Shown in pieces: positions 6,165 through 20,331 of a DNA stretch of 21,032 nt. The notes under the pieces were generated by a model, which had not been told where the DNA came from, ran no database searches, and saw nothing but the letters and a program-made list of their open reading frames with translations. The DNA comes from a virus, in IMG/VR virus record IMGVR_UViG_3300044813_000014, positions 1 through 21,032 of that record, one strand, 5' to 3'. Made by a program: the position numbers and the translations under genes. Positions within the stretch are counted from its first letter, which is position 1. Every line of letters starts with the position of its first letter.

Positions 6165-6192
6165 CGGCTACCTGCTACCTACTGCCTACTGC
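6165..6192 (-). repeat. Heptamer tandem repeat between two head genes
   Basis: Two perfect copies of GCAGTAG (minus strand), followed by degenerate copies, span the junction of two genes. They supply the TAG stop of the upstream gene (6188-6186) and an AGG-type ribosome site for the downstream gene. The same heptamer occurs in opposite orientation at 20304-20324. Confidence 0.7.
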
Positions 6193-7950: not shown

Positions 7951-8700
7951 CTAATCGACGACCGTGACGCCTTCCTTCGCCATCGTCGCCCTTTCGGCGG
8001 GCGTCTTCTGTTCGAATTCGGCTCTCTTGACAGTCTTGGCACCGCCAGTACCGCCGCCACTGCCGCCGGCCGGAGCACCGCTCCCGCCCGCGCCCGTGGC
8101 CTCGTAGAGCCACGGCTTTTGCGTCTTGAACTCCTCGCCGAAAAACTTGTCGAGGTCGCTGCGGGATTCGAGGCCGTCCTTGTCGAGGACGACGATCTTG
8201 TCGCCTTCGCCGAGCTTGAAGTGGCGCTCCGTGAGGAGCAGGGTGTCCTCGACCTTTTCCTTGTGGACACCGGCATTCAGGGCCGCCTCCCTCACCCTGT
8301 CGGTGAGCTTGAACTTCGTGAGCTGGCCGTCGCGGTCGCCGATCTGCTTCACCAAGTCCGCTTTCTCGTCGTCCCAATCCTTCTGCCACTTCGCCTTCAG
8401 CTTCTCGACCTCGCCGCTCTGGATGAGATTCTGTTCGTCGAGCTCGTCGAGGCGCGCCTGCGCGGCGCGCGCCTTCTCCGGGTCGATGCCCTTGTACTTA
8501 TCGACCTCGGTCTTCAGGCGCTTGCGCTCCGTCCGCTCGTGCTCGAGCGCGCCGGCCACTTCCTCCCGGTCGTCGAACTCGAAGTCGGCGAACTTCGCCG
8601 GGTCTACCTCGAAGCCGTCGTCCTTCTCAACGTAGAGAGCGCGATACGGCTCCGGGACATCTTCGAGCTTGGTGACCTTCTTAAACTTCCACTTAGCCAT
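7951..8700 (-). CDS. Scaffold protein
   Basis: A 249-residue protein; I chose ATG 8700 (MAKWKFKK) with a GGAG upstream rather than an in-frame GTG at 8733. The sequence is dominated by a charged coiled coil (about residues 50-135, rich in Glu, Lys, Arg, Leu) followed by a Gly/Ala linker and a basic C-terminal helix (KRAEFEQKTPAERATMAKEG). The C-terminal coat-binding helix-turn-helix is a known feature of P22-like scaffolds. It is immediately upstream of the coat gene and is the first gene behind a repeat-type promoter. With no protease gene seen, recycling rather than cleavage of the scaffold is likely. Confidence 0.85.
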   Translation of the reverse strand: MAKWKFKKVTKLEDVPEPYRALYVEKDDGFEVDPAKFADFEFDDREEVAGALEHERTERKRLKTEVDKYKGIDPEKARAAQARLDELDEQNLIQSGEVEKLKAKWQKDWDDEKADLVKQIGDRDGQLTKFKLTDRVREAALNAGVHKEKVEDTLLLTERHFKLGEGDKIVVLDKDGLESRSDLDKFFGEEFKTQKPWLYEATGAGGSGAPAGGSGGGTGGAKTVKRAEFEQKTPAERATMAKEGVTVVD

Positions 8701-8723
8701 TCGAGCACCGCTCCAATGTTTGT

Positions 8724-8742
8724 CGCCTGTCACCGACAGGCG
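8724..8742 (-). promoter_or_regulatory. Hairpin in leader of capsid operon
   Basis: A perfect 8-bp stem (CGCCTGTC / GACAGGCG) with a 3-nt loop lies 23 bp upstream of the scaffold start and downstream of the predicted transcription start. It is not followed by a T-run on either strand. It may stabilise the 5' end of the capsid transcript or be a protein-binding hairpin. Confidence 0.5.
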
Positions 8743-8786
8743 GAGATGTGGCGCGCGAGGAGAGTCCTCCGCGCCGTGCGAGCGTG

Positions 8787-8830
8787 AATCTAAGGCAGGC
8801 CGGGTTTTTATTTTCCGTAGGGGTGTCCGA
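8787..8830 (-). promoter_or_regulatory. Repeat-type phage promoter, copy 1 (capsid/tail operon)
   Basis: On the minus strand this holds the shared 23-bp element (begins TCGGACACCCC, ends GGAAAATAA) at about 8829-8807. A 15-nt spacer follows and then the -10 candidate TAGATT (8792-8787). The expected start of transcription near 8780 gives a leader of about 80 nt ahead of the scaffold gene. Two other copies share the element and the exact 15-nt spacing. Confidence 0.7.
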
Positions 8831-8869
8831 GTGGAGCAGACTGGTGAAGACTACCGGCCGGGGCCGGGT

Positions 8870-8875
8870 TATAAT
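8870..8875 (+). promoter_or_regulatory. Plus-strand -10 box, possibly leaderless
   Basis: A perfect TATAAT ends 6 bp before ATG 8882, so transcription would begin at or next to the start codon. I see no good -35 hexamer at 16-18 bp. The nearby repeat element lies in the opposite orientation about 40 bp upstream. Confidence 0.5.
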
Positions 8876-8881
8876 TCGCGC

Positions 8882-9199
8882 ATGGAAGAGCCCTTCGGTA
8901 CCGTGGCCGCGCCACCGCAGCCGGCCCCCAGCCCTTTCGTCCAGGCGGTCGCGCAGGCGCTCAGCGCGAAGCAGATCTCGCCCGTGTGCGTCGAATGCGG
9001 GCAGGCGCAGGATTGGCAGGATTGGATGCTGATCCCGACCCCGGTCGCGCTCCCGCTCATCCCGGGCCCCGGCGTCGAGGCGTCGGCGAGCCTGGCGGCC
9101 TCGCTGTCGTGCACGCGCTGCGGCCACGTGCGGCTTTACCGGTTGGACTTGATCGGGGTGCAGGTGGAGCAGCGGAGGATCATCGTGCCCGGGGGGTGA
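8882..9199 (+). CDS. Zinc-ribbon protein, first gene of inverted cassette
   Basis: A 105-residue protein on the plus strand. ATG 8882 is preferred because TATAAT lies six bases upstream, and upstream extension would run through the repeat element. An Ala/Pro-rich N-terminus is followed by two CxxC knuckles, C36/C39 (CVECG) and C77/C80 (CTRCG), enough for one zinc ribbon. The last strand region (VRLYRLDLIGVQV) is beta-prone. Its stop overlaps an in-frame GTG of the next gene (GTGA), suggesting coupling. I do not recognise the family; nucleic-acid or protein binding is possible but not shown. Confidence 0.7.
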   Translation: MEEPFGTVAAPPQPAPSPFVQAVAQALSAKQISPVCVECGQAQDWQDWMLIPTPVALPLIPGPGVEASASLAASLSCTRCGHVRLYRLDLIGVQVEQRRIIVPGG

Positions 9200-9204
9200 A
9201 TGTC

Positions 9205-9903
9205 ATGGGTGACGACGAGATGAGAGCTTGCCGCGGGTGCGGCGCACAGAGCAGGCTGGCGGCGGCCGAGTGTGACAGGCTTTGTACTGAATGTGGGCGG
9301 CTGAGGCCCCTGGCGCATAGTGGCCTTCCCGGCGAGACGGTTAAGCTAATTCGCCTCCTTCGTGACGACTCGCTCCGCTTCGAGGAGGTGACCATTCTTG
9401 AGAAGGGCACGGGTTACCTAATTTCGAAATACGCGACCGCCGCGAAATCGGCTGTAGTAGCGGACTTTAAATGTTCATTCTGCGAGAGAGTGTATTGGAT
9501 TAGTATTAATCCGCTGCTCGCAGCGCGCCCCTCAGAGTTGAATCTTCTTACCCTTGAATGTGCGCATTTTATTCCCGAGCGGGTGATTGAGGCGCTCGAC
9601 CGGCATTGCCGGCCGGTGGTTGTTGCACTCACCGGTGAGGGGCTCAGCGCACTTAAGTTCCCTCAAGCCAAACGCAGTGAGTTGTGCGAGCGCGTCGTGT
9701 TAGAGGAAGTCTTCGAGGGCAGCTTTAGGCGCTTCGCCGGCTACGACTCACGCGGTGAGACGTGGACTGTAGATATCGACCTCGAAGGCCGCTTCATCAC
9801 CTTCGACCACACCCACGTGGGCGCTCGTGAAGCCGGAGTGACCAGTCACTACTTACGCGAGGACGGGAAGTACAGCGCCGTCGTCTGGATGATTCCGAGG
9901 TGA
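9205..9903 (+). CDS. Cys-rich protein with two zinc-knuckle pairs
   Basis: A 232-residue protein. ATG 9205 has a G-run eight bases upstream; an in-frame GTG at 9196 overlapping the previous stop is an alternative start. An N-terminal zinc ribbon is visible (C9/C12 and C27/C30). A second possible site follows (C90/C93 with C119 and H121). The C-terminal 70 residues are beta-rich (TWTVDIDLEGRFITFDHTHV). The GC content falls noticeably in this gene compared with the structural genes, suggesting separate origin. The family is not recognised. As the largest member of the inverted cassette it is the likeliest functional core. Confidence 0.7.
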   Translation: MGDDEMRACRGCGAQSRLAAAECDRLCTECGRLRPLAHSGLPGETVKLIRLLRDDSLRFEEVTILEKGTGYLISKYATAAKSAVVADFKCSFCERVYWISINPLLAARPSELNLLTLECAHFIPERVIEALDRHCRPVVVALTGEGLSALKFPQAKRSELCERVVLEEVFEGSFRRFAGYDSRGETWTVDIDLEGRFITFDHTHVGAREAGVTSHYLREDGKYSAVVWMIPR

Positions 9904-9913
9904 TCTCGCTTAC

Positions 9914-10123
9914 ATGATAGTTTTCTGTACCTGTCCGACCCCACTCAACAGCGAACATCCCGACTTAGTGCTGTCCTGCCATCGGTGCGGTCATCCTATT
10001 GAGTGTGAGTATTCAGACGACGATAATCCTCACGCCGCCACCGTCCGCCACATTGATTATTTCGTCTGCGGCGCCCACTTGGCGGCCGCCGTCGACAACG
10101 TTCATTCCAGAACATTTGAATGA
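9914..10123 (+). CDS. Small Cys-rich protein
   Basis: A 69-residue protein beginning 10 bp after the previous gene, with a weak ribosome site. It has a C5-x-C7 pair, a CHRCG knuckle (C22/C25), C31 and C52, and several His residues, so it could bind one zinc, possibly two. Its stop overlaps the next start as ATGA. No family recognised. AT-richer codons than the surrounding phage genes. Confidence 0.65.
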   Translation: MIVFCTCPTPLNSEHPDLVLSCHRCGHPIECEYSDDDNPHAATVRHIDYFVCGAHLAAAVDNVHSRTFE

Positions 10124-10338
10124 GTAACAGCTATATTTACTGTAGCGAGTGCGCTTTTCCTATCACTTCTGGTTTTAACCCTGACGGCGAATTAGTCGTC
10201 CGCGGCTACACTCTCTGTCCGGAGTGCCTTGATGGAATCCCCGCAGAGGTCGCAAACGCATTCTTAACGGCGGCCAAAGAAGTGGGAGCCCGACGGCGAG
10301 CAGCAGGAGCTAGCCCAGCACCTGCTTCAGACTCCTGA
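10120..10338 (+). CDS. Small zinc-ribbon protein, last gene of cassette
   Basis: A 72-residue protein coupled to the previous gene by an ATGA overlap. Two CxxC knuckles (C8/C11, C33/C36) separated by about 21 residues form a compact zinc ribbon. The C-terminal half is an Ala-rich helix with a basic run (ARRRAAG). Its 3' end overlaps the convergent minor head gene by 29 bp with no terminator visible between them, so transcription would run antisense into that gene. Family not recognised. Confidence 0.65.
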   Translation: MSNSYIYCSECAFPITSGFNPDGELVVRGYTLCPECLDGIPAEVANAFLTAAKEVGARRRAAGASPAPASDS

Positions 10339-18116: not shown

Positions 18117-18515
18117 TTACCCCGCCGGCGGGAACGCTGCGTTGAGCGCGTCCCGGAGCTGCGTCAGGTACTTGGCGAAGCGCATGCGGCTCACCTGGTC
18201 ACCGACCAGCGCGAGCACGGTCGAGATGGCCTGGCGCGTCAACAAATCTTTCCAGCCGGAGCCGGCGCTTGAGGCGAGCGTGTGCACGGTCGTCCCCGCC
18301 GGCGAGGCCAGCGCACCGTTGAGCAGTTCCCCGGTCTGCTTCTTGTCGCGCTGCGACCAGAAGAGCGAGGCGACCGCGACGGCCGCGCCGACCAGCTGGG
18401 CGGCCGAGCCGACGAACGAGTCGCGCTCGGCGTCGCCCAGGTAGCCACGCGTGACGAGCACGCCCGCGAGTAAGACCAAGCCCCAGCGGATGAGAGCAGC
18501 GATTTGTGGGTTCAC
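18117..18515 (-). CDS. Holin, Pam3-gp28-like
   Basis: A 132-residue protein with GTG 18515 preceded by AAGGAG at seven bases. Residues 5-55 contain two membrane segments (IRWGLVLLAGVLVTRGYL and AAQLVGAAVAVASLFWSQ) joined by a short polar loop, the pattern of Pam3-gp28-type holins. The extended C-terminal half is helical and cytoplasmic (about 75 residues), longer than in many relatives. It is the first gene of the long lysis-packaging operon behind repeat promoter copy 2, so its timing probably follows that promoter. Confidence 0.72.
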   Translation of the reverse strand: MNPQIAALIRWGLVLLAGVLVTRGYLGDAERDSFVGSAAQLVGAAVAVASLFWSQRDKKQTGELLNGALASPAGTTVHTLASSAGSGWKDLLTRQAISTVLALVGDQVSRMRFAKYLTQLRDALNAAFPPAG

Positions 18516-18625: not shown

Positions 18626-18670
18626 AGACTAGAGCAAGGCGGTTATTTATTTTCCGTAGGGGTGTCCGAG
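18626..18670 (-). promoter_or_regulatory. Repeat-type phage promoter, copy 2 (lysis/packaging operon)
   Basis: The shared 23-bp element lies at 18669-18647 on the minus strand, a 15-nt spacer follows, and the -10 candidate is TAGTCT (18631-18626). Predicted transcription starts near 18619, giving a leader of about 100 nt before the holin GTG. The 5' edge of the element is only eight bases from the previous gene's stop. The 160-bp intergenic stretch holds no other clear signal. Confidence 0.7.
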
Positions 18671-18677
18671 CGGAGGG

Positions 18678-19163
18678 TCAGTGGAGCAGGCCGTAGTAGC
18701 GGACGGTGCCTTTGCGGCCGCACTTTCCCTTGCCGCTCATCGTGGTGATGTAGACGAGATCGACGGCGGCTGAGGACCACTCGTCGAGGAAGGCTTGGAT
18801 CAGTTCGGCCGGGAGGAGCGTTTGCGCCGTGATCTCGGCGACGGTCACGAGTTCGGCCCGTTCCATCACCTTCAGCACGGCCATGCGCTGCCGGTGCTCG
18901 TCGCCGGCGTGGCGCATGCGGTAAGCGCGCGCGACGCGGTAGAGTTCGCGCCTCATGTTCGGGTCATGCTCGGCGGCGGCGATCTCCGTGATTCTCTTCG
19001 CGCACTCAAAATCCATAGCGCGAGGGTCTCCCGCGCGCCTGGCCAACTCCCGCAGACGCGATCGCTGCTCGCGTCTGCGCACGGAGCGCGTCAGGTCGGA
19101 CGGGTAGGCAGGCCGGGGCGGCGGCGGCGGGAGGACGGCGGGGGACGGGCTTGCAGAAGACAT
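18678..19163 (-). CDS. Unknown basic protein, winged-helix-like C-terminus
   Basis: A 161-residue protein. A Pro-rich N-terminus (residues 7-20) is followed by an Arg-rich helical region with RRREQRSRLRELARRAG. The C-terminal 65 residues (from VMERAELVTVAEITAQ to GTVRYYGLLH) read like a winged helix: three short helices, then a Gly/Lys-rich wing. That would suggest DNA binding, possibly a late regulator. It begins six bases after the VRR-NUC stop and is the last gene before repeat promoter copy 2. No family recognised. Confidence 0.65.
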   Translation of the reverse strand: MSSASPSPAVLPPPPPRPAYPSDLTRSVRRREQRSRLRELARRAGDPRAMDFECAKRITEIAAAEHDPNMRRELYRVARAYRMRHAGDEHRQRMAVLKVMERAELVTVAEITAQTLLPAELIQAFLDEWSSAAVDLVYITTMSGKGKCGRKGTVRYYGLLH

Positions 19164-19169
19164 ATGATC

Positions 19170-19646
19170 TTACTCGTAGATGGGGGCGTGACGGGCGAGG
19201 CCCAGGTACTCGATGACTAATCGTGCCGCGGCCTGCCACGAGTAGCAGACCTCCCGGCGGACGCCGATGCGGTCGAGGTAGCGCATGTATCGCTCCTGGT
19301 TTTCGCTCGGCTTCTCGCCCCTGCGCTTCATCTCGATGCGCAGCCCGTGCCAGTGGGCGCGGGGCTCGTCGCAGGAGATGTCGAGGATGCCGCTCTTCAA
19401 CCCTTCGGCGACCAGGCGGCGGGCGTGCCCCTTGGCGACGTGCGCGCCGTTCGGGATGCTGTGAATCCAGTCGAGCGTCTCCCGCTCGTCGCTGCCCTCG
19501 GGGTAGAGCCTGGCCGTCGAGCCGATCCAGGAGAAGAGGCACTGCTGCTCGATGGTTTCGAGGTGGGGCGGCCGGGTAATGGCGAAAAGCGTCCGGCCCT
19601 TCCGCCCCTCGAAGTTCATCCCGCCCCTGATCACCCCCTTGGCCAC
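19170..19646 (-). CDS. VRR-NUC domain nuclease
   Basis: A 158-residue protein with GTG start at 19646. Signature elements appear in order: a helix with E33-Q34 (ETIEQQCLFSW), IPNGA (64-68), GLKSGILDI with D89, RIEMKR with E105 and K107 (the E-x-K catalytic pair), and SENQERYM with Q117. These match the PD-(D/E)xK nuclease core of stand-alone phage VRR-NUC proteins, likely acting in DNA recombination or branch resolution before packaging. A -10 box TATAAA ends seven bases before the start, so the mRNA would be leaderless. Confidence 0.88.
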   Translation of the reverse strand: MAKGVIRGGMNFEGRKGRTLFAITRPPHLETIEQQCLFSWIGSTARLYPEGSDERETLDWIHSIPNGAHVAKGHARRLVAEGLKSGILDISCDEPRAHWHGLRIEMKRRGEKPSENQERYMRYLDRIGVRREVCYSWQAAARLVIEYLGLARHAPIYE

Positions 19647-19653
19647 ACCGCGG

Positions 19654-19698
19654 TTTATACAACTGGGGTGAGAATTATTTTCCGTAGGGGTGTCCGAG
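19654..19698 (-). promoter_or_regulatory. Repeat-type phage promoter, copy 3 (VRR-NUC operon)
   Basis: The 23-bp element is at 19697-19675 on the minus strand, a 15-nt spacer follows, then TATAAA (19659-19654), the best -10 of the three copies. It ends seven bases before the VRR-NUC GTG, so transcription would start at the start codon itself. Confidence 0.72.
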
Positions 19699-19732
19699 TG
19701 GGGCCGGGTGCGCGCAAAACTCGCGCCTCGGC

Positions 19733-20283: not shown

Positions 20284-20324
20284 TTCAGCGTTCAGCGTTC
20301 ACAGTAGGCAGTAGGCAGTAGGCA
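20284..20324 (+). repeat. Tandem heptamer repeats
   Basis: Two exact copies of TTCAGCG (20284-20297), then three exact copies of GTAGGCA (20304-20324). They lie just beyond the stop of the 20332-20649 gene in a 209-bp non-coding stretch. The same heptamer, inverted, occurs at 6165-6192. Confidence 0.85.
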
Positions 20325-20331
20325 GTTCACT

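Follow-up and report, generated by a model that had tools for sequence, protein, structure and literature searches.

A 24-bp element repeated ahead of three minus-strand operons of a phage, probably a phage-specific promoter element

The viral record and the repeated element

The window, that is the entire viral record of 21,032 bases (G+C 60–70%), carries nearly all of its genes on the minus strand. These encode a VRR-NUC nuclease, an orphan protein of 161 amino acids, a holin, the terminase, the portal, a Mu F-like head protein, the scaffold, the capsid and the tape measure (Table 1). The VRR-NUC gene likely starts at the ATG at 19619 and the scaffold gene at the ATG at 8700, where the sequence provides a GGAG ribosome site. 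Relatives of the terminase and the capsid reach identities of up to 66–69%. The portal has no relative above 30% identity, which leaves no close relative to compare, and searches for closer relatives via the portal or via the 161-amino acid protein returned none; the phage lineage is otherwise unknown. We recognised neither an integrase nor a repressor gene in the 21-kb fragment, and a tRNA search of the window found none. The small Cys-rich genes of the inverted plus-strand block appear zinc-ribbon-like, and a TATAAT at 8870–8875 lies 6 nt ahead of the first ATG of this block, as in a leaderless transcript.

Table 1. Features of the window discussed in the text
Feature	Coordinates	Strand	Detail
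Element copy 1	8808..8831	-	exact match; ahead of scaffold/capsid/tail operon
Element copy 2	18647..18670	-	exact match; ahead of holin/terminase operon
Element copy 3	19675..19698	-	exact match; ahead of VRR-NUC gene
CNCCR extension (weaker), copy 1	8832–8836	-	upstream of element
CNCCR extension (weaker), copy 2	18671–18675	-	upstream of element
CNCCR extension (weaker), copy 3	19699–19703	-	upstream of element
-10-like TAGATT	8787..8792	-	15 nt after copy 1
-10-like TAGTCT	18626..18631	-	15 nt after copy 2; also within a predicted RNA hairpin
-10-like TATAAA	19654..19659	-	15 nt after copy 3
Putative alternative start, first G of GGAAAA	copy 1 8816; copy 2 18655; copy 3 19683	-	expected for a single-subunit polymerase if aligned to the Syn5 promoter (PMC3950665)
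Head scaffolding gene	7951..8733	-	3' of copy 1; PHROG 206, E 5e-35
Inverted block, small Cys-rich genes	8882..10338	+	breaks up the late operon of the minus strand; directly upstream of copy 1
Holin gene	18117..18515	-	3' of copy 2; PF23987, E 3e-10
Orphan 161-aa protein gene	18678..19163	-	between copies 3 and 2; predicted C-terminal winged helix
VRR-NUC nuclease gene	19170..19646	-	3' of copy 3; PHROG 824, E 2e-29; PF08774, E 1e-4, just under cut-off

An exact search finds the 24-bp element CTCGGACACCCCTACGGAAAATAA three times in the window, on the minus strand only. It is one base longer than the 23 bp noted by the sequence-only reading, which had rightly described a threefold minus-strand, intergenic repeat; its coordinates for copy 1 (about 8829–8807) were off by one, the exact search giving 8831–8808. 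No copy is expected by chance (0 in 100 dinucleotide shuffles), and no further site with three or fewer mismatches exists in the window. The extended pattern CNCC-R-24mer-W-N14-TANNNW matches at the three copies and nowhere else in the window. The element is contiguous, asymmetric and non-palindromic, and it contains CGGA as a direct repeat whose two starts are 12 bp apart.

All three copies are intergenic, between co-directional genes, and point the same way as the genes downstream of them. Copy 2 starts 7 nt past the stop of the 161-amino acid gene and copy 3 ~35 nt past a stop codon, whereas copy 1 is located between the scaffold gene and the plus-strand Cys-rich block, at the place where minus-strand transcription must restart after this inverted block. 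This position of copy 1, together with the constant orientation, makes promoter function the natural reading.

The boxes downstream of the element

At exactly 15 nt from the end of each copy, a pattern search confirmed the TAnnnW hexamers that the sequence-only reading had listed. They match TATAAT at 4/6 (TAGATT), 3/6 (TAGTCT) and 5/6 (TATAAA) positions, summing to 12/18 at the shared offset. When all three flanks were shuffled, a summed match of this size at any offset from 0 to 29 had P = 0.0002; with copies 1 and 2 held fixed, P was 0.0017 if the flank of copy 3 was shuffled, 0.0016 if it was drawn from intergenic composition and 0.0005 if it was replaced by a random window flank. The -10-like boxes at a fixed distance are statistically real.

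The downstream flanks of copies 1 and 2 are identical at 19/30 bases, a level reached in none of 4000 shuffles, so that these two copies are not independent. Their hexamers agree at 4/6 positions, no better than the 30-nt flank as a whole. The earlier argument, that differing spacers speak for selection on spacing rather than recent duplication, therefore fails for this pair. By contrast, copy 3 is unrelated to both outside the block, which means that the block itself is constrained or was copied alone. The same comparison bears on a non-regulatory origin of the element as a mobile, recombination or recently duplicated sequence: the agreement between copies 1 and 2 is what a duplication would leave behind, but copy 3 is identical over 24 bp and yet unrelated around them, and all copies share one orientation, an operon-start position and a fixed -10 offset. 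We regard such an origin as most improbable.

A host sigma70-type -35 (TTGACA-like) is absent at 16–18 nt from the -10-like boxes, where GGAAAA, GAAAAT and AAAATA match it at one or two of six positions, and a promoter scan listed no -35/-10 sigma70 promoter at the three sites. The sigma54 promoters of phage YuA reportedly have the form TGGCACG-N4-TTGCA, with GG-N10-GC. We rejected this class: the best match was 18/36 (P 0.13), and the element has GG-N10-GG instead of GG-N10-GC. Two-box scores for sigma32, ECF and sigma70 are not interpretable, because their null ignores the identity of the block across copies.

Two possible readers: a phage factor with host polymerase, or a phage polymerase

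Taken in the broad sense, the element is quite probably a phage-specific promoter element; few, perfectly conserved phage promoters are a well-known kind, with a precedent in PMC4331800. The sequence-only reading had proposed a promoter class in which the element replaces the -35 region. A promoter class specific to the phage is still the best reading, and the fixed -10 is real, but the -10 boxes are poor and the duplication argument is lost for copies 1 and 2. It had also observed, correctly, that perfect conservation extends over more bases than in a usual sigma promoter, which favours a single-subunit polymerase as much as an activator. Its list of possible readers included a phage-directed host polymerase and omitted a serious rival, namely a single-subunit RNA polymerase of the phage itself, with its start site within the element.

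We tentatively lean towards a site for an activator or an alternative sigma factor that stands in for the -35 next to a host-type -10. A phage-encoded factor of this kind would bind the 24–29 bp element at about -51 to -28 (reaching -56 if the CNCCR extension is included) and recruit host RNA polymerase, with the weak TAnnnW box, at its distance of 15 nt downstream, serving as the -10 and the element standing in for the -35. Minus-strand transcription of the late operons would then start, or resume, at a promoter class peculiar to the phage, with the element as its recognition site. The element would be centred near -40 and would cover the -35 region, where an activator is expected to sit.

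The main evidence for an activator or alternative sigma factor is the occurrence of the -10-like boxes at a single offset. Against it stand the poor quality of these boxes (TAGTCT, 3/6), since factor-assisted promoters that lack a -35 need good ones, as T4 middle promoters do (PMC2988021); the dependence between copies 1 and 2, whose hexamers are conserved no more than their flank; and the form of the element, which is asymmetric and contiguous and exceeds a typical activator half-site in length. The likeness to T4 middle promoters, the closest analogue, to which the sites had been compared, is limited to a phage element that replaces the -35 at a fixed distance upstream of a host-type -10. 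In that case of sigma appropriation the MotA box, (a/t)3TGCTTtA, spans ~10 bp and is centred at -30, with a spacing of 12+/-1 bp to its good -10 (PMC2988021), whereas the element here spans 24–29 bp, has an unrelated sequence and lies 15 nt from a poor -10, so that length, sequence and spacing all fail to match.

The orphan 161-amino acid protein is a candidate DNA-binding regulator or activator, judged from its position and predicted fold. A single-sequence AlphaFold (AF2) model, made with no alignment, has a pLDDT of 73 and a putative C-terminal winged helix, and its top Foldseek matches are mostly winged-helix transcription factors with modest E-values (best 2e-3). We found no sequence homologues of the protein, and it is not related to the gene of MW202444.1 annotated as ‘transcription initiation factor iiE’. 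That the element and its degenerate -10 form the late-promoter class of an unseen lineage, served by host polymerase and a phage factor, possibly this protein, is distinctly unlikely as a complete account. Were the activator reading to hold, it would add a late-gene promoter and a matching activator, both specific to the phage, and the activator would have a candidate.

A possible if somewhat doubtful alternative is that a T7-like single-subunit RNA polymerase, encoded by the phage, uses the element as its promoter and that the TAnnnW boxes are coincidental. Such a polymerase would bind positions -15 to -1 (CTCGGACACCCCTAC) and initiate at the GG within the element (GGAAAATAA). Phages of this type carry low-copy elements that are short, contiguous and perfectly conserved, in codirectional intergenic positions, and in these respects the element agrees with the promoter class (contiguous sites of ~20 bp, near-identical, codirectional, intergenic and in low copy). 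There are published precedents: VSW-3 has a 21-bp promoter repeat in four copies (PMC9624206), and the siphovirus Xp10 has two 43-bp repeats ahead of its structural genes (PMC4331800). Xp10 resembles the present phage in being a tailed phage of siphovirus type whose structural genes are preceded by a small number of long, perfect repeats in intergenic DNA; going by its published description, it differs in the length of its repeats and in having both in one gap. The repeat search that flags the element also recovers the known promoter of Syn5, a perfect 20-bp repeat in two copies (PMC3950665). It also finds similar repeats soon after the polymerase gene in 25/76 IMG/VR polymerase loci; some of these repeats are weak and may be due to chance.

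The bases of the element point in the same direction. Its core, GGACACCCCTAC followed by GGAAAA, aligns with Syn5 (GGGCACCCGTAA followed by G), with the weak promoter of KP34 (GGACATCCGT) and with a predicted Stenotrophomonas phage promoter (TGGTACCCGTAC). It matches the Syn5 promoter ATTGGGCACCCGTAA-GGG at 12/18 positions, sharing GGxCACCCxTAx and the G that follows, and it also matches the KP34 weak promoter TTGGACATCCGT (PMC6834552) and the predicted promoter TTGGTACCCGTAC of Stenotrophomonas phage SBP7phi1. In the Syn5 register the RNA would begin with the purine-rich GGAAAA. Averaged over 21 harvested promoters, the similarity of the element is greater than that of shuffles (P 0.013–0.018) in the forward orientation only, a modest resemblance to single-subunit polymerase promoters that would count against an activator.

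Other comparisons weaken the case for a single-subunit polymerase. The ten published promoters alone give no signal versus shuffles (P 0.20–0.45), and with a weight matrix built from nine published promoters, all of which end in A, the site ranks only 329/42026. In the Syn5 register the AT-rich stretch from -17 to -13 is absent (CNCCRCTC), as is the A at -1 (CTAC before GG); the element differs from Syn5 at 5/15 upstream positions, is without the ATT run and has C at -1. The plain reading as a Syn5-type promoter, with which we began, was weakened by the matrix and shuffle tests. The likeness to the KP34 weak promoter (ACTTTGGACATCCGTCAAGT) consists of a GGACA-x-CC-x-T core (PMC6834552), but that promoter is weak, imprecise and inside the polymerase gene, and overall identity is 10/20. 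Nor would a single-subunit polymerase account for -10-like boxes that share one offset. Moreover, the fragment contains no single-subunit polymerase gene, and PF00940 is absent from all ~97 records of terminase or capsid relatives, while the Syn5 positive control was found. The apparent lack of a T7-like polymerase in these records lowers the prior for a single-subunit polymerase and would favour an activator; that same prior is raised by the element being long and contiguous. Either reading can claim one statistical support, of modest strength, and suffers from one structural weakness.

If a single-subunit polymerase does read the element, the phage would join a T7-like polymerase with a tape measure, a rare arrangement, and the polymerase/promoter pair could be of use as a tool. 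Under either reading this is one more phage with few, perfectly conserved promoters, of a kind that a simple intergenic comparison finds. SBP7phi1 (L217) has four coding-strand copies of a TTGGTACCCGTACAACA-type sequence, a candidate promoter for its polymerase; two of the four follow closely on the RNA polymerase gene. Loci L232, L237, L238, L243 and L251 have candidate single-subunit polymerase promoters in repeats right after the polymerase gene, for example TCAATTGGGCACTTATAG, TTTCGGTACACATACGACAG and TATGGACCCCTATTGGAT.

Searches beyond the window and other functions

The element sequence is absent from the viral and bacterial collections that we searched. Viral contigs contain neither the exact 24-mer nor its 17-mer; a 15-mer has 26 single matches there, nearly all within long open frames, and none of these 26 records keeps the 3' part of the element or has PF00940. 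Bacterial genomes lack the 22-mer and hold 22 single matches to the 17-mer, about the chance expectation. BLAST against phages gave one chance match, a fuzzy search in part of the relatives gave no site with fewer than 7 mismatches, and the relatives' own repeated promoters, which have a clear -35/-10 in the marine ones, include no homologous element.

Functions other than a site for an activator or sigma factor or a single-subunit polymerase promoter are, taken together, fairly unlikely. One is a repressor operator or a roadblock of the stoperator kind, in which asymmetric sites in short intergenic gaps would shut late operons. The copies are codirectional, intergenic, non-palindromic and near-identical, as such sites would be, and the direct CGGA repeat could fit a tandem binder; an operator alone predicts no -10 at a fixed downstream distance, and the lack of a recognised integrase or repressor gene also speaks against it. 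We consider this function improbable.

Another, which we consider very improbable, is an RNA-level element that would act in the 5' leader on translation, processing or antitermination. Its sense-strand position ahead of operons would suit this role, as would the folding of the copy 1 leader, which is stronger than in shuffles (z -3.1); folding is unremarkable in the leaders of copies 2 and 3 (z -1.3 and -0.9), the 24-mer itself is unstructured (z -0.6) and an Rfam search gave no match at the sites. A transcript would also be complementary to the start of tRNA-Ser. This opposite-strand resemblance (GGTGTCCGAGTGG) is supported by one tRNA-Ser with one mismatch and is probably a coincidence.

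Several further features lie near these subjects. The leader that separates copy 1 from the scaffold gene (8700–8840, minus strand) has two strong hairpins in its unusually stable predicted fold. The plus strand at 8808–8836 contains GGTGTCCGAG(T/C)GG, which resembles the D-arm start of tRNA-Ser genes, the sense transcript being antisense to it. Many marine relatives (L059 and related loci) carry a 20-bp repeat, ACTAATTTTACATAACCTTG, downstream of the terminase; it looks like a duplicated sigma70-type promoter, with TTTACA-N18-TATAAT in the first copy. In the window itself, positions 6168–6191 and 20302–20325 hold related CAGTAGG-type tandem repeats of 24 bp in opposite orientation, 88% complementary and apparently intergenic.
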